From the NCBI GenBank assembly GCA_034370385.1, contig JAXMKZ010000059.1, positions 1 through 64,000 on the forward strand: DNA of 64,000 nt, given 5' to 3'. Shown piece after piece: positions 30,795-36,341 of this stretch. The position numbers and the translations under genes are program-made. Source of the stretch: Coriobacteriia bacterium (GTDB lineage: Bacteria; Actinomycetota; Coriobacteriia; Anaerosomatales; PHET01). Below the pieces are notes generated by a model, which worked only from the letters and a program-made list of their open reading frames with translations, had not been told where the DNA came from and searched no databases. Numbering within the stretch: the stretch's first letter is position 1; the number at the start of each line of letters is the position of its first letter.

Positions 30795-32378
30795 CTACCG
30801 CACCTTGTCGGCGACCTCCTCCGGATCCCAGAAGCAGAACGGGTACGTGCGATCGGTGAGGATGTCGGCAGCCGCACGCTGCGCCTTCAGGCGTTCCAGG
30901 TCGTCCAGCAACTCGGCCTTGAGCGGCGCGAGGACACCGGCCAGCTCTGCGTTCACTTCGCGGATGCGCATCCCGAGACGCTTCTTGTCGGCGTCCGGAG
31001 CCGCGATATCGGCGACGAGGCGCGCCTTCTCCTTCACGAGCGCCGCTGCTTGCGCTTGTTCGTCGGGGTCATCAAAATCCACCGACGCAAGCAGCGCATC
31101 CGGGTTGTGCTCGAAGCGGTTCACGCGCTCGGTGGCCTGGGCGATCTCGGCATCCGAGACCAGATGGGCGCCAAGCGGCAGGTAGAGCGTGATCGACGCA
31201 ACCGCGTAGGCGGGCGGTTCGACACCGAAGTAGCGCCTGATCACGCTGTCCGTCACTCGGTCGTAGCGCCCCCCGCCCACGCCGTGTACGAAAAGATCGC
31301 AGCACAGCATCCGCACGAACGCGGTGAGCGTGAGAGCCTTCGGCGCCACGAGCATCCCGGCACGGCCCGCCTCGGACAGCACCGCCGTCGCCACGTGCAC
31401 ATCTGCCGGCAGCTCCAGTACCGGCCCGTCGTCTGTCACAAGCGCTACTCCGCCCGGTACCTCTCGGACATACAGCCGCTTGCGCGTGCCTCCCGCAAGC
31501 CACCAGAACGGCACCTCGACCCGCTCCTTGCCGATCTCCAGATCGGGGAACGGCTGTGCAGCAGAACGCGTCTGAGTCGCCGCCCGATAGGCGGCAAGCT
31601 CGGCGTTGTGGTCGCCCGCGAACCGTCGTGAATCATGCAGCAGGTGCACCACGAACCTCGCGTACGCCTCCCCGGCGGCGAGCTGCGTCACCGGCACCTC
31701 GAGGTAGTCGGTCTGCGCCGCGGCCTCGTAGCGGCGCCGCGCAAACGTCACGAGCTCCGCCAGGTTCTCGGCATCGTGCGCTGCGCTCTCAATACAGTCG
31801 GCGAAGCGCTCGAAGTGGCGAGGCACCGACGGCGCCGGCAGCGACTCAAGCGCAGACGATGTCGCACGCCGGAAGTCAGCGAGCGCGCTGGCGCACGGCA
31901 CAGGGGTCGACGCGTAGCAGGCGCCGGGGGTGGCCAGCGCGAGGTACTGGCGGCACCGCGCCAGACCGGGATCCATGCAGGGCGACGTCACCCTGATGGC
32001 ATCGAACCCGTCCGTGTCGACCACGACATCGACCGCAGTGGCGCCGGTCTCGTCGGCGAAGCGCTGCACGAGGAAGTCCTTCGCCCAGACCCCGGGGTGA
32101 TAGAGCTCGGGCTGGTGCCCGGTCGCGATGATCGGCGCATCCGAAAGTCCGGCGGGTCGCACGGGCACACCGAGGCGCGCGGAGAACTGCGCGGCGCTAC
32201 TGAGCATGTCGCACCGCGCGGCGGCACGCAGTTCGCGTGCGTCCACCCCGCCGATCTCGAAGTCCCACGACTCCGCGGCTGAACGGTTCGCGGCTACAAG
32301 GGCGGCCCACTCATCGTAGACCGGCGTCGTCAGCAGCTCGCCATGTCCTGCCGGCAGTGTCGGCCGCTGGCGTATCAC
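30795..32378 (-). CDS. divergent BshC-like protein (uncharacterised)
   Basis: A 527-residue protein without a secure family assignment. Landmarks occur in the same order as in bacillithiol cysteine ligase BshC. IIATGHQPELYHPGVWAKDFL corresponds to the TGQQ..L.TGP motif. VVVDTDGFD stands where BshC has SEDHD. LTLTAFVRMLCCDLFVHGVGGGRYDRVTD parallels LRPL.QD....VGGP.E, followed by PAYAVASITLYLP and a late coiled coil (about 430-500). Full-length homology is my inference from motif order. The preceding gene encodes a BshB1-like deacetylase, which supports a role in a cysteine-sugar thiol pathway. The GTG at 32376-32378 lies 5 bp after that gene; the Shine-Dalgarno is weak. Confidence 0.5.
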   Translation of the reverse strand: MIRQRPTLPAGHGELLTTPVYDEWAALVAANRSAAESWDFEIGGVDARELRAAARCDMLSSAAQFSARLGVPVRPAGLSDAPIIATGHQPELYHPGVWAKDFLVQRFADETGATAVDVVVDTDGFDAIRVTSPCMDPGLARCRQYLALATPGACYASTPVPCASALADFRRATSSALESLPAPSVPRHFERFADCIESAAHDAENLAELVTFARRRYEAAAQTDYLEVPVTQLAAGEAYARFVVHLLHDSRRFAGDHNAELAAYRAATQTRSAAQPFPDLEIGKERVEVPFWWLAGGTRKRLYVREVPGGVALVTDDGPVLELPADVHVATAVLSEAGRAGMLVAPKALTLTAFVRMLCCDLFVHGVGGGRYDRVTDSVIRRYFGVEPPAYAVASITLYLPLGAHLVSDAEIAQATERVNRFEHNPDALLASVDFDDPDEQAQAAALVKEKARLVADIAAPDADKKRLGMRIREVNAELAGVLAPLKAELLDDLERLKAQRAAADILTDRTYPFCFWDPEEVADKVR

Positions 32379-32383
32379 GATAC

Positions 32384-33082
32384 CTACAACACCACGTCGA
32401 GGCTGCCGAGGGCCACGGGCTCGAGGGCGAAGAACGGTTCGCCGAAGGGTACTCGGGCGAGCGCTCCCCACATCGCTGCAGCCGCCTCCATCGATTCGAC
32501 GATGCCCGCATTGGCCGGATTCGCCGCAAACTGGGATTCGTAGGCGCGAAGCGCCTCGAGCTTCACGGGAAGCTCCGCCGTCACGTCGATCACGAAAGAC
32601 GGCTCGGCGATGATGCGCTGATGAACGGCCATGTAGCGAAAGACCCGCGGCGGATAGAACGGCTCGCCCGGCATGTCGGTCTTGGTGAACTTCGCATAGA
32701 AGCGGGCGCCCAAACAGATCGAAGCGGCTGCCACATGGTCCGGATGAGCGTCGACCGGATAGGGCACGAACAGCATCCGTGGCCTCAACTCCCGCAGCAC
32801 GGTCGCGAGTTCGGTCCTGGCCTCGACGCTGTCAAACAGGTAGCGGTTGGCCTGAGTCAGCGTGCGCCGCTCAGCGCCGAGGATCTCAGCGGCCTTCGCC
32901 GACTCACCCGCCCGGATCTCGGGCGAGCCATACGGTGTCGGCTCGCCGTCGGTCAGATCGACGATGGCGACCTGCGCGCCCGCCGCCGTGAGCTTGGCGA
33001 TGGTAGCGCCCATGCCGATCTCGACATCATCGGGGTGGGCGCCCACGCACACCGCCTCGTAGTACCAGTCGCTGCCGTTCAT
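32384..33082 (-). CDS. PIG-L/BshB1-like N-acetylglucosamine deacetylase
   Basis: 232-residue zinc deacetylase of the LmbE/PIG-L family. Motifs: VCVGAHPDDVEIGMGATIAKL (catalytic AHPDD), DLTDGEPTPYGSPEIRAGE, YPVDAHPDHVAAA (second metal site) and EPFYPPRVFRYM. The C-terminal PSFVIDVTAELPVKLEALRAYESQF is particularly BshB1-like; BshB1 removes the acetyl group of GlcNAc-malate in bacillithiol synthesis. The ATG overlaps the GT2 stop (ATGA) with TTGGAGGC upstream. No BshA-type glycosyltransferase is in the window, so the exact substrate is open. Confidence 0.8.
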   Translation of the reverse strand: MNGSDWYYEAVCVGAHPDDVEIGMGATIAKLTAAGAQVAIVDLTDGEPTPYGSPEIRAGESAKAAEILGAERRTLTQANRYLFDSVEARTELATVLRELRPRMLFVPYPVDAHPDHVAAASICLGARFYAKFTKTDMPGEPFYPPRVFRYMAVHQRIIAEPSFVIDVTAELPVKLEALRAYESQFAANPANAGIVESMEAAAAMWGALARVPFGEPFFALEPVALGSLDVVL

Positions 33083-33774
33083 AGCGCCTCCAAGGCCCCG
33101 TTCCACACGCCGAGATAGTACTCGAGCCGACGTTCCGGGTCGTCCAGATCCTCGCCGAAGGTGCGGTCGCGATCGCAGTAGATGCGCTCGACCGGAAGCT
33201 CCCCTACCGATAGCCCGGCCCTCCAGCTGCGCGCCCACAACTGAAGCGGCATCGCATAGCCCGGCTCGGTGAGCGACAGCTCCTGCAGGCGTAGCACGCG
33301 GTACGCCTTGAAGCCGCAGAAGGCATCGGTGAGCCCCCAGCCCGTCACGCGGTTGATCTCGCTCGTGATCACGGCGTTGACGCGTCGACGGTCCTCAGGT
33401 ACGACGATCCCGTGCGCCGCGCTGGCTGGCAGGTAGCGGCTTCCCGACACGATGTCGTGGTACTCGAGCGCAGCGAGAAACTGAGGGATGTGCGCAGGCT
33501 CGTGCTGTCCGTCGCAGTCCATGGTCACCACACGCTCGTGGCCCAGTTCGCGCGCGACGTCGAACCCGATGCGCAGCGCGCACCCGTATCCGCAGTTGCG
33601 ATCGAGGCGCACGACACCCACATCACCGCGGCGTGCAAGCCGCAGCGGGGTCTCGTCCGTCGAGCCGTCGTCGATCACGAGAATCTCGCCGTCGAAGTAC
33701 CTACGGACGCTATCCAGCACTCCGTCCACGCTCGCGGCCTCGTTGTGGACGGGCATGACGACGGCATCGCCCAC
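33079..33774 (-). CDS. family 2 glycosyltransferase
   Basis: 231-residue GT-A glycosyltransferase of the DPM1/DPG-synthase-like type. VVMPVHNEAASVDGVLDSV opens the fold, LVIDDGSTDETPLRLA binds the nucleotide, the DxD motif is MDCDGQHEP, and INRVTGWGLTDAFCGFKAYR is typical of polyprenyl-phosphate glycosyltransferases. No transmembrane helices. The start is taken as GTG at 33772-33774 (MGDAVVMPVHNE), because a longer reading would run into the OsmC gene. It overlaps the PIG-L gene by 4 bp. Donor and acceptor are unknown. Confidence 0.82.
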   Translation of the reverse strand: MGDAVVMPVHNEAASVDGVLDSVRRYFDGEILVIDDGSTDETPLRLARRGDVGVVRLDRNCGYGCALRIGFDVARELGHERVVTMDCDGQHEPAHIPQFLAALEYHDIVSGSRYLPASAAHGIVVPEDRRRVNAVITSEINRVTGWGLTDAFCGFKAYRVLRLQELSLTEPGYAMPLQLWARSWRAGLSVGELPVERIYCDRDRTFGEDLDDPERRLEYYLGVWNGALEAL

Positions 33775-33787
33775 GTTCGACGTCGCT

Positions 33788-34255
33788 CTACTCGTCGATC
33801 TCGTCGCCGGAGAGCAGGGAGGTGCCCGCAGCCCGAGCGTCAATCACGCGGTAACTCGTGGTCACGTGCACCTGCGGACCGAGCATGCCCTTCACGGAGC
33901 AGTACTTCTCCTCAGACAGCTCGATGGCTCGGGCCACCGCAGCGGGGTTGATTCCATAGCCGGTGACCACGTACTCGACAGCGATGTCGGTGTAGATCTT
34001 GGGATACTCATCGGTCCTGGGTGTTCCGGTGACGTTGATCTCAAGCCCGCGCACATCCTGACGCTTCTTCTCAAGGATCGAGATGACGTCCATGCCCGTG
34101 CAACCCGCAAGCCCGTGAAGAACGAGCTCCACGGGACGAAACCCGGAACCCTCCCCCTTGTAGGCGGCCGATGCATCCATGACCACACTGTGTCCCGCCT
34201 CGTCAGTGCCCACGAGCTGGCGCTTCGTGGTCCACCGCACGCGTGCGCTATCCAT
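33788..34255 (-). CDS. OsmC/YhfA-family protein
   Basis: 155-residue OsmC-superfamily protein. The two redox cysteines are in LAGCTGMDVISIL and EEKYCSVKGML, as in OsmC/Ohr peroxidases; the sequence is nearer the YhfA-like OsmC group than Ohr. Such proteins reduce organic hydroperoxides with thiols or act on related electrophiles. The ATG at 34253-34255 has GGAGGCGGGG upstream. It is first in a tight minus-strand group with the GT2, PIG-L and BshC-like genes, compatible with a thiol-linked role (inference). Confidence 0.87.
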   Translation of the reverse strand: MDSARVRWTTKRQLVGTDEAGHSVVMDASAAYKGEGSGFRPVELVLHGLAGCTGMDVISILEKKRQDVRGLEINVTGTPRTDEYPKIYTDIAVEYVVTGYGINPAAVARAIELSEEKYCSVKGMLGPQVHVTTSYRVIDARAAGTSLLSGDEIDE

Positions 34256-34308: not shown

Positions 34309-36198
34309 TTAAATCTTGCGTCCGACCATGTCGGCCAGCTCGCGAGGGCTCTTCGCCTTGCTGATGGCCTCCTCGAAGCTGATCTTGCCCTGCGTCAGCA
34401 GAATCTTGAGGTGCTGATCGAGGGTCTGCATCCCCAACTGAGCGCCACCCTGGATGATCGTGTCCATCTGGTGGGTCTTGCCTTCGCGGATGAGGTTCGA
34501 GATGGCGGGTACGCCGAGCATGATCTCCATGGCGAGCATACGGTTGCGCCCGTCAGTGGAGCGGAGCAGCACCTGCGACAGAACACCCTCGAGCGTGTTG
34601 GACAGCTGCATCCTGACCTGTTGCTGCTGGTGGGGCGGGAACACGTCGATGATGCGGTCGACGGTCTCCGGGCCACCGGTGGTGTGAAGCGTTGCGAGGA
34701 CCAGGTGCCCCGTCTCGGCCGCCGTGATCGCCGCCGAGATCGTCTCGAGGTCGCGCATCTCGCCGACGAGGATCACATCGGGGTCCTGACGCAACACGCG
34801 CTTGAGCGCTGACGCGAAGCTGTGCGTGTCTTCGCCCACCTCGCGCTGGTTCACGAAACTCTTCTTGTTGCGGTGCATGAACTCGATGGGGTCTTCCATC
34901 GTGATGATGTGCAGCGACTTGGTCTCGTTGATGTGATTGATCATCGCAGCCAGCGTGGTCGACTTACCCGAGCCGGTCGGCCCGGTGACGAGCACGAGTC
35001 CCCGCGGTCGATCGGCGAGGAAGCGGCAGACCTTCGGGAGAGCCAGCTCGTCCATCGTCGGGATCTTGATGGGGATGACGCGGAAGACCGCACCCATCGA
35101 ATTGCGCTGCTGGAAGACGTTGGCGCGGAAGCGCGAGACCCCGGGAATGGAGTAGGCGAAGTCGAGCTCGAGCTCTGTCTCGAACCGCCGACGCTGCTCC
35201 TCGGAGAGCAGCGACAGGATCATCTCCATCGTGTCACGCGGGGTGAGTGGCTTCATCTCCTCAACCGCGACCAGTTCGCCCCGCTGGCGGATGCCGGGGG
35301 GACTGCCCACCGTTATGTGCAGGTCGGAACCACCGCGCTCGAGCATGAGTCGCAGAAGGTCGTCGATGTGGGGGATGTCGCTTCCCGGCATCTTGATGTC
35401 CGAAGCCGCCGAGACGCTGCCGCTGACCGGCTGCGGAACCCCGCTGCCCATGCCTCCCGAATCAGGTGCCTTCGGCGGGGTCACGGGCTGCGGTGTGCCA
35501 TACGATGCAGCACTGCCCTCAGTGGCAGCTTCAACGGACCTGGCCGGAGACGCCCCACCAAGGCCACCTATCGGCCCCGGTGTCGTCTGCTCCGGCGCGG
35601 CCACCACTCCGGCAGCAGGTTCCACGCTCGGCACCGCCGAGGAGGGGGCGGCCATCTGCTCGGGGGCCCCCATCGGCTCGCGAATGGCATCGACGCTCAT
35701 CGGCGAGACAGGCATGGGAGGCGGCCCTGCGGGCATCGGCGCCGGGGCGGAGGGCACCACCGGCATCGGCATCGGCGCAGGCATGTCGCTGACCGGTGCC
35801 GGAGCCGCTGCCGCTGGTGCGGGCGCCGACCCGGCAAGCGTGAGCACCTTGCCGGCAATACCCTCGATCGCACCAGCTGCCGAGAGGTGCGCTGAGGCAC
35901 CCGCCTGGCGCGCACGCAGGGCGGATGCCTCGTTGGGCATCGCGGTGACTATCACAACCGGGACGTCCTTGGTCTGCGGATCGGCCTTGAGCTGCTGGGT
36001 GAACGCGTAGCCGTCGACGCCGATCAGCTCGGCCTCGACGACAAACACGTCGGGCATCTGCTGTGCGACCATTCCCAGAGCCCGCGGAGCTGATAGCGCG
36101 GTATCAACCAGCGTGTCTGCAGCTGCGGCGACAAGCGCTGCGCTCAGCTGGGCAACGAACGCCTCGTCATCATGGACGATCAGAACCTGCTTCGACAC
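34309..36198 (-). CDS. pilT: PilT-type twitching ATPase fused to an N-terminal pseudo-receiver domain
   Basis: 629 residues. Residues ~1-122 form a response-regulator-like domain: the acidic pair HDDE and VTA are kept, but the phosphoacceptor aspartate is Glu55 (VVEAEL) and the late lysine is missing (HLSAAG). A Pro/Ala/Met-rich linker fills about 123-270. The C-terminal ~350 residues are a complete PilT hexameric ATPase: IDDLLRLMLERGGSDLHITVG, Walker A GPTGSGKSTT, Asp box VNQREVGEDT, Walker B VILVGEMRDLET and His box LATLHTT. PilT retracts type IV pili. GTG at 36196-36198 has AGGAGG 8 nt upstream. No other pilus genes are in the window. Confidence 0.92.
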   Translation of the reverse strand: MSKQVLIVHDDEAFVAQLSAALVAAAADTLVDTALSAPRALGMVAQQMPDVFVVEAELIGVDGYAFTQQLKADPQTKDVPVVIVTAMPNEASALRARQAGASAHLSAAGAIEGIAGKVLTLAGSAPAPAAAAPAPVSDMPAPMPMPVVPSAPAPMPAGPPPMPVSPMSVDAIREPMGAPEQMAAPSSAVPSVEPAAGVVAAPEQTTPGPIGGLGGASPARSVEAATEGSAASYGTPQPVTPPKAPDSGGMGSGVPQPVSGSVSAASDIKMPGSDIPHIDDLLRLMLERGGSDLHITVGSPPGIRQRGELVAVEEMKPLTPRDTMEMILSLLSEEQRRRFETELELDFAYSIPGVSRFRANVFQQRNSMGAVFRVIPIKIPTMDELALPKVCRFLADRPRGLVLVTGPTGSGKSTTLAAMINHINETKSLHIITMEDPIEFMHRNKKSFVNQREVGEDTHSFASALKRVLRQDPDVILVGEMRDLETISAAITAAETGHLVLATLHTTGGPETVDRIIDVFPPHQQQQVRMQLSNTLEGVLSQVLLRSTDGRNRMLAMEIMLGVPAISNLIREGKTHQMDTIIQGGAQLGMQTLDQHLKILLTQGKISFEEAISKAKSPRELADMVGRKI

Positions 36199-36341
36199 AA
36201 CAGGACCTCCTCGCAAGCGAACCCGGCCTCAAGCGCAGACATGAACGCGGCCCCACTCTCGCACACCGGCATCCCCGCGGCCCCGATGCGTACGTCGGTT
36301 AGGATGTGCCGGTACCAATCCCTACGCGAGGAGCGAGTCGC

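Follow-up and report, generated by a model that had tools for sequence, protein, structure and literature searches.

The stretch of 64,000 nucleotides analysed here (positions 1 to 64,000 of contig JAXMKZ010000059.1, assembly GCA_034370385.1; hereafter the window) belongs to a Coriobacteriia bacterium of the order Anaerosomatales. Its minus strand contains four tightly packed genes, which encode an OsmC-family protein, a glycosyltransferase of family 2 (GT2), a PIG-L deacetylase resembling BshB1 and a protein of 527 residues, here termed BshC-like (Table 1). Genes and positions are confirmed as originally predicted. The OsmC and GT2 genes are separated by 13 bases, the GT2 and deacetylase genes overlap by four bases (ATGA), and five bases lie between the deacetylase and BshC-like genes. 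The OsmC, GT2 and PIG-L proteins exceed their Pfam cut-offs. The original prediction regarded this group as a bacillithiol-type cluster with the GT2 in place of BshA and the 527-residue protein in the last step, a reading supported by the predicted fold, a profile match, the absence of the standard genes and a pattern of exclusion among Planctomycetota.

Table 1. Genes and sequence motifs of the cluster, with positions in the window.
Feature	Position	Strand	Evidence and remarks
BshC-like protein ("BshC2"), 527 residues	30795..32378	-	Rossmann-type core and C-terminal helices, predicted; proposed cysteine-adding step
HGVGGGRYD motif, residues 365-373	31260..31286	-	H365, G366, G368, G369 and Y372 invariant in 56 sequences
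DTD motif, residues 121-123	32010..32018	-	D121 invariant, D123 in 90% or more (56 sequences); lies close to the D-D-H-D region of BshC in the alignment
TGHQP motif, residues 86-90	32109..32123	-	G87 invariant, H88 and P90 in 90% or more (56 sequences); placed by hhalign on TGQQPGL of BshC
PIG-L deacetylase, GEPTP/NR subfamily, sister to canonical BshB1	32384..33082	-	PF02585, 88.1 bits
N-R pair replacing D-G (or D-A) of canonical BshB1	32843..32848	-	45/45 alternative rows, 0/18 canonical rows
GEPTP loop replacing GE(M/L)GT of canonical BshB1	32933..32947	-	45/45 alternative rows, 0/18 canonical rows
GT2 glycosyltransferase (GT-A fold), 231 residues	33079..33774	-	PF00535, 75.8 bits; proposed stand-in for BshA
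OsmC-family protein	33788..34255	-	PF02566, 62.3 bits; both Cys conserved in 54/54; accessory

The BshC-like protein of the window has no convincing match in Pfam, NCBIfam or the PDB sequences by direct search with hidden Markov models, and the BshC family PF10079 (cut-off 27 bits) is not among its Pfam matches. Its relatives behave in the same way. Nothing convincing is found in Pfam or NCBIfam for 36 of them (set A1, from 36 of the 57 fetched BshC-like loci), PF10079 being absent among the best 25 of the 32 families listed, and the best family matches look like chance matches to coiled coils. A profile of the whole family likewise lacks a convincing match among PDB sequences.

In contrast, predicted structure and profile-profile comparison both lead to BshC. 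The AlphaFold2 model (mean pLDDT 94.7, pTM 0.88) retrieves Bacillus subtilis BshC (4WBD) first in Foldseek (8e-13), with class I lysyl-tRNA synthetase (LysRS) next (5e-5). In VIA, the model aligns with 4WBD over 450 residues (Z 27.3, root-mean-square deviation (rmsd) 6.0), with class I LysRS over 273 residues (Z 20.0, rmsd 3.3) and with MshC at Z 10.3. For hhalign, 56 BshC-like sequences (set A2: 14 out of 56 Anaerosomatales loci and 42 out of 44 from elsewhere, without L135 and L145, which are cut short by contig ends) were compared with 26 real BshC sequences (set A3: 26 of 30 Planctomycetota loci with PF10079; L226 and L252 (piece in the wrong frame), L241 (cut) and L247 (near copy) left out). 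The two sets match with a probability of 91, a score of 61.9 and an E-value of 1.1e-6 over 164 columns, whereas the controls score 23.3 (A3 reversed) and 14.6-18.5 (five column shuffles), all six with E-values of 0.083-0.62. The negative direct search, which alone would speak in part against the BshC assignment of the original prediction, is contradicted by fold and profile comparison; the assignment stands at the level of profiles and structure and fails at that of direct HMM matches.

The motif order noted earlier (TGHQ...PG, DTD, GVGGGRY) is present as TGHQPELYHPG, DTD and HGVGGGRYD, with core residues invariant or nearly so among the 36 and the 56 relatives. The placement of HGVGGGRYD on the GP-EIAY region of BshC is a reading by eye, supported by no confident alignment. 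As judged from the model, the BshC-like protein is a distant member of the BshC superfamily. Class I LysRS was considered as its true family and placed below BshC, behind which it ranks in Foldseek and VIA. At four further loci (L275, L277, L278 and L279) the gene next to the GT2 encodes a divergent BshC-like protein (123-141 bits with the family model), possibly a third branch of the superfamily.

The deacetylase of the window reaches 178.8 bits with the NCBI BshB1 model TIGR04001, just below the cut-off of 182.5, and only 52.5 bits with the MshB model. Among 34 other genomes with a BshC-like locus, 33 possess a BshB1-family match at 1e-15 and 28 exceed the TIGR04001 cut-off. The name of this equivalog may therefore be too specific; many GEPTP deacetylases pass it, and a genome may thus be labelled as bacillithiol-producing on the strength of that gene alone.

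In a tree, 18 canonical BshB1 sequences (from 18 of 79 deacetylase-carrying BshC genomes, all of one phylum sample) were set against 45 rows from BshC-like genomes and the deacetylase of G586, a Planctomycetota genome treated below. The 45 rows, picked by score or position and not by motif, comprise 20 unlinked copies, from 20 of the 34 genomes mentioned above (18 with Planctomycetes or anammox titles, one Nitrospinia and one other), 15 copies from cassettes in other phyla and 10 from among the 56 Anaerosomatales loci. The stretches fetched around the 20 unlinked copies contain no GT2 or BshC-like gene. All 45 rows and G586 lie on one side of a branch with support 100/97, and the window deacetylase falls outside the canonical BshB1 clade; seven long-branch rows, including G586, G473 and G468, drew a warning from the tree tool and are unsure in position.

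The GEPTP loop and the pair N131-R132 (numbering of P0002, the long reading frame of the window) occur in 45/45 alternative rows and in G586. The canonical rows possess D131 (18/18), G101 (16/18) and T102 (16/18), with T101 or P102 in none of the 18. HPDD and HPDH positions, which we take to be the metal and catalytic sites, are kept in both groups, save H165 in one row. Deacetylases that adjoin a BshC-like gene carry GEPTP at 55/56 loci of the order and at 18/18 others. The exception, L086, has its deacetylase gene split over two overlapping frames, by assembly error or decay. An aglycone other than that of bacillithiol would require a different first enzyme and a second enzyme altered at its substrate end, and such a pattern is seen in the GT2 and the deacetylase.

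The predicted structure of the GT2 (pLDDT 95.2) is closest in VIA to dolichyl-phosphate mannose synthase (5MLZ, Z 25.0, rmsd 2.5, 217 residues aligned), followed by ArnC (Z 22.9) and glucosyl-3-phosphoglycerate synthase (GpgS, Z 21.0); Foldseek ranks ArnC first. The GT-A fold is shared with these enzymes, but the window GT2 lies far below the listed NCBIfam cut-offs (best model PpgS, 82.6 bits against 370) and the family has no consistent membrane helix, the hydropathy mark for such a helix being exceeded in 2 of 48 sequences (set A4, 48 chosen rows, with unlinked GT2 copies outside it). The PpgS model matches 48/48 members. R113, in a GSRY motif, and R129 are invariant in all 48. The corresponding arginines of dolichyl-phosphate mannose synthase hold the acceptor phosphate, a role that, by analogy, would suggest an anionic acceptor for the GT2.

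None of the standard genes searched for reaches its cut-off in the order. BshC (PF10079) is found in 0/69 genomes of Anaerosomatales, the window genome included. BshA (TIGR03999) gives weak matches in 69/69 and none over the cut-off (best 147.6 against 273.7 bits), and MshC (TIGR03447) gives matches at 1e-30 in 66/69, again none over the cut-off (best 313.3 against 485.1 bits); the best match to the MshC model is presumably a cysteinyl-tRNA synthetase. The positive controls Bacillus subtilis, Thermus and Deinobacterium were matched for BshC and, at 1e-55, for BshA. A mycothiol pathway in the order is rejected on the MshC result.

The BshC-like protein is encoded in 65/69 genomes of Anaerosomatales, including that of the window, and in 5/396 genomes of an even sample across the phylum, four of the five in Anaerosomatales with the window genome among them; both counts come from a search with a single protein, which may miss distant relatives. 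Gene context was fetched at 57 loci, 56 of the order (out of the 65 with a match) and one outside it. The 56 loci keep, as far as their contigs reach, the row EF-G, YegS, PlsY, BshC-like, PIG-L, GT2, OsmC, PilT, TrmA. Exceptions are L039, which lacks YegS or PlsY in between, and L087-L089, where the TrmA match is weak (31-34% identity). The locus outside the order (L090, on the same contig as L127) possesses the GT2 and BshC-like genes only.

A scan of named genomes confirmed at least 559 BshC-like relatives, of which 80 loci were kept for context. Among these 80, GT2 and deacetylase genes both accompany the BshC-like gene at 52 loci, the GT2 alone at 10, the deacetylase alone at one and neither at 17, a class that includes short contigs. 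The 52 full cassettes comprise 34 of the order and 18 others, 17 of which are titled outside Coriobacteriia (L112 being titled Coriobacteriia); they occur in records named ANGP1, Armatimonadota, Nitrospinota, Nitrospirae, Bacillota and Limnochordaceae. The ten loci with GT2 and BshC-like gene only are nine Planctomycetes-type records and L127. A BshC-like gene alone is found in anammox records (Scalindua, Brocadia, Anammoxibacter), some other Planctomycetota and one Nitrospinia record (L142).

The OsmC gene, counted in the original prediction as part of the cluster, adjoins the cassette at the loci of the order. Its adjacency there stands, but it was dropped as a core part, because among the loci examined it is a neighbour in Anaerosomatales only. 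Directly upstream of the operon, a PilT-like fusion gene (34309-36216, minus strand) combines a PF00072 receiver (50.5 bits), a long proline-rich linker and a PF00437 PilT-type ATPase (151.9 bits); a PilT-like neighbour occupies the same place at those loci of the order that reach that far.

Planctomycetota possess either gene set, and the same 149 genomes were searched for BshC, BshC-like, the BshB1 family, BshA and the GT2 family. BshC is present in 81/149 and the BshC-like protein in 25/149 (19 over 300 bits; the other six are divergent members, a fragment in G534 and, in G547, a match of 19 bits that is probably noise). The BshB1 family at 1e-40 is found in 101/149 (NCBI cut-off exceeded in 90), BshA at 1e-55 in 78/149 (76 over the cut-off) and the GT2 family in 24/149 at 250 bits or more, the next score being 155. 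No genome combines the BshC-like protein with BshC, and none combines it with BshA; the Fisher value for the exclusion of BshC is 1.6e-10, which ignores kinship and serves as a guide only. All 78 BshA genomes have BshC, while BshC occurs without BshA in G515, G529 and G586 and without BshB1 in G515 and G571. The 101 genomes with the BshB1 family divide into 79 with BshC and 22 with the BshC-like protein, four of the latter (G496, G527, G587 and G603) with its divergent form, and none has neither. Three genomes (G505, G514 and G528) have canonical bshC, bshB1 and bshA as neighbours on one contig.

GT2 genomes possess the BshC-like protein in 23/24 cases and BshA in none. The two genes are adjacent in 13 of the 23 genomes and non-adjacent in 10 (G534, whose copy is a contig-end fragment, being undecided), so linkage alone does not explain the association. 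The 24th genome, G586, has a PF10079 BshC, a GEPTP deacetylase and a GT2 on three contigs (L315, L316 and L243) and no BshA. This is a mixed pathway, with the gene content expected if the GT2 takes the place of BshA. Its BshC looks divergent: it reaches 335.9 bits with a BshC model built without it, while a row inside the model reaches 574.3, an uneven comparison. The patterns of gene content in Planctomycetota support the replacement of BshA and BshC by the set of GT2, deacetylase and BshC-like protein.

By analogy with BshA/BshB1/BshC, the GT2, the deacetylase and the BshC-like protein probably form a parallel three-step pathway, giving a thiol of the form Cys-GlcN-X. The GT2 would join an N-acetyl-aminosugar, probably N-acetylglucosamine (GlcNAc) from UDP-GlcNAc, to an anionic acceptor X, giving GlcNAc-X. 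The GEPTP-type PIG-L enzyme would remove the acetyl group to leave the glucosamine derivative GlcN-X, and the BshC-like protein would add cysteine to the freed amine, yielding the low-molecular-weight thiol Cys-GlcN-X. OsmC would act as a thiol-using peroxidase, in Anaerosomatales only. X is possibly malate; given the changed loop of the deacetylase and the unrelated transferase, a different X or a different linkage is at least as likely.

Bacillithiol synthesis (BshA/BshB1/BshC in Bacillus, Thermus, Chlorobi and others) is the closest known system, two of the three cassette genes being related to its families and one being replaced by an unrelated enzyme. Shared are the three-step logic, the deacetylase family and the predicted terminal fold, and one gene set replaces the other in the Planctomycetota sample. 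The cassette differs in its first enzyme, a GT-A-fold GT2 instead of the GT4 BshA, in a terminal protein that stays below the BshC model and in a deacetylase of a sister clade, with GEPTP/NR instead of GE(M/L)GT/DG. Mycothiol synthesis (MshA/MshB/MshC/MshD in other Actinobacteria) has the same sequence of GlcNAc-X, deacetylation and cysteine addition, but differs in the enzymes, as seen in the lack of MshC over its cut-off in the order, the low MshB score of the deacetylase and the distance of the terminal protein from MshC in VIA. N-methyl-bacillithiol (BshABC and NmbA) resembles the predicted product as a variant thiol on a bacillithiol backbone; that system needs BshA-C, whereas the order lacks BshA and BshC over the cut-off.

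There is close to an even chance that the cassette makes a new low-molecular-weight thiol, whose aglycone or anomeric linkage would set it apart from bacillithiol, mycothiol and N-methyl-bacillithiol and which would be the main thiol of Anaerosomatales, anammox and Bythopirellula-like Planctomycetes, Nitrospinota, ANGP1 and some Armatimonadota and Bacillota. That the operon instead makes bacillithiol itself, with the GT2 as a non-homologous replacement joining GlcNAc to malate and the other two proteins acting as BshB1 and BshC, seems unlikely. The many BshC-like genomes with a protein above the BshB1 equivalog cut-off would fit bacillithiol, as would G586, where the GT2 occurs together with a PF10079 BshC, a family that normally acts on GlcN-malate; yet G586 is a single genome with an apparently divergent BshC, the deacetylase forms a separate clade with invariant changes, and the first and last enzymes are changed together. 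An inverting mechanism is moreover expected of a GT2, and the opposite anomer would result.

Two further alternatives concern single enzymes of the cassette. The kinship of the GT2 with dolichyl-phosphate mannose synthase and ArnC, its closest solved relatives, and the match of all its members to the PpgS model (with the window GT2 far under the cut-off) would agree with a polyprenyl or other lipid phosphate as acceptor. Lipid-linked glucosamine would then receive the cysteine, and the product would modify the envelope instead of being a soluble thiol; membrane glycolipids are likewise among the substrates of PIG-L enzymes. We consider this improbable in view of the lack of a consistent membrane helix, the closeness also of glucosyl-3-phosphoglycerate synthase, which uses a soluble acceptor, and the alternation with the genes of bacillithiol, a soluble thiol, which fits a thiol better. 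Still less credible is a class I aminoacyl-tRNA-synthetase-like role for the BshC-like protein, with an amino acid other than cysteine added and an aminoacyl sugar without a thiol as product. In its favour, class I LysRS comes second among the structural matches, and the sequence does not reveal which amino acid is added. Against it, Foldseek and VIA both rank BshC higher, with 450 residues aligned in VIA, and the BshC-like protein alternates with BshC in Planctomycetota (LysRS lay outside that search).

Several observations weigh against a soluble thiol made by a BshC relative. The reactions, the sugar, the order of the steps and the role of the product as a thiol buffer are what we infer, and the compound is predicted from the genes. 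In the structural alignment with BshC, 9% of the residues are identical, the hhalign match is confident in the N-terminal part only (columns 49-225), and class I LysRS also scores highly, its shorter alignment having the lower rmsd. Lipid phosphates are the substrates of the closest GT2 relatives of solved structure, which would allow a lipid product. As of a 2015 review (PMC4360819, in the part cited here), activity of BshC itself had not been demonstrated in vitro and its mechanism was still unknown. Some genomes possess incomplete sets: G470, a BshC-like genome outside the Planctomycetota sample, has no BshB1-family match at 1e-15; G493, the genome of L127, has GT2 and BshC-like genes with a best BshB1 match of 63.7 bits; three of the 25 BshC-like Planctomycetota (G534, G547 and G585) lack a deacetylase at 1e-40, and G547 and G606 lack the GT2, the first of these having the doubtful BshC-like match mentioned above. 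The sampled Planctomycetota are related, so Fisher values overstate independence, and A2 and A4 include rows taken from a few genomes among the 149, so that those genomes match by construction. The standard-gene search in the order covered BshA, BshC and MshC, with glutathione genes (gshA/gshB) and other thiol genes outside it.

Planctomycetes are listed by Hiras et al. 2018 (PMC6282198, passage cited here) among the lineages without a documented or predicted thiol, whereas in our Planctomycetota sample about half of the genomes carry bshA and bshC, and another sixth carry the alternative set. A 2025 survey (PMC12719100) counted, in the section cited, species having BshA, BshB and BshC together, a count that would miss a GT2-based route. 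No description of a GT2-based bacillithiol route or of the BshC-like family was found in the open-licence PMC literature (subscription papers and preprints lying outside this search). From this gene set a thiol is predicted in part of the Planctomycetes including the anammox genera, in Nitrospinota and in an order of Actinobacteria that has members in culture. Isolates of Anaerosomatales described in PMC9686372 are Anaerosoma tenue M08DHB and Parvivirga hydrogeniphila Es71-Z0120. The BshC-like proteins amount to a second BshC family, very distant from the first, which can aid in finding the catalytic residues of BshC. The three adjacent genes apparently represent a second, previously unrecognised route to a protective sulfur compound of the bacillithiol kind, taken by several bacterial groups in place of the known genes, the compound itself being predicted.

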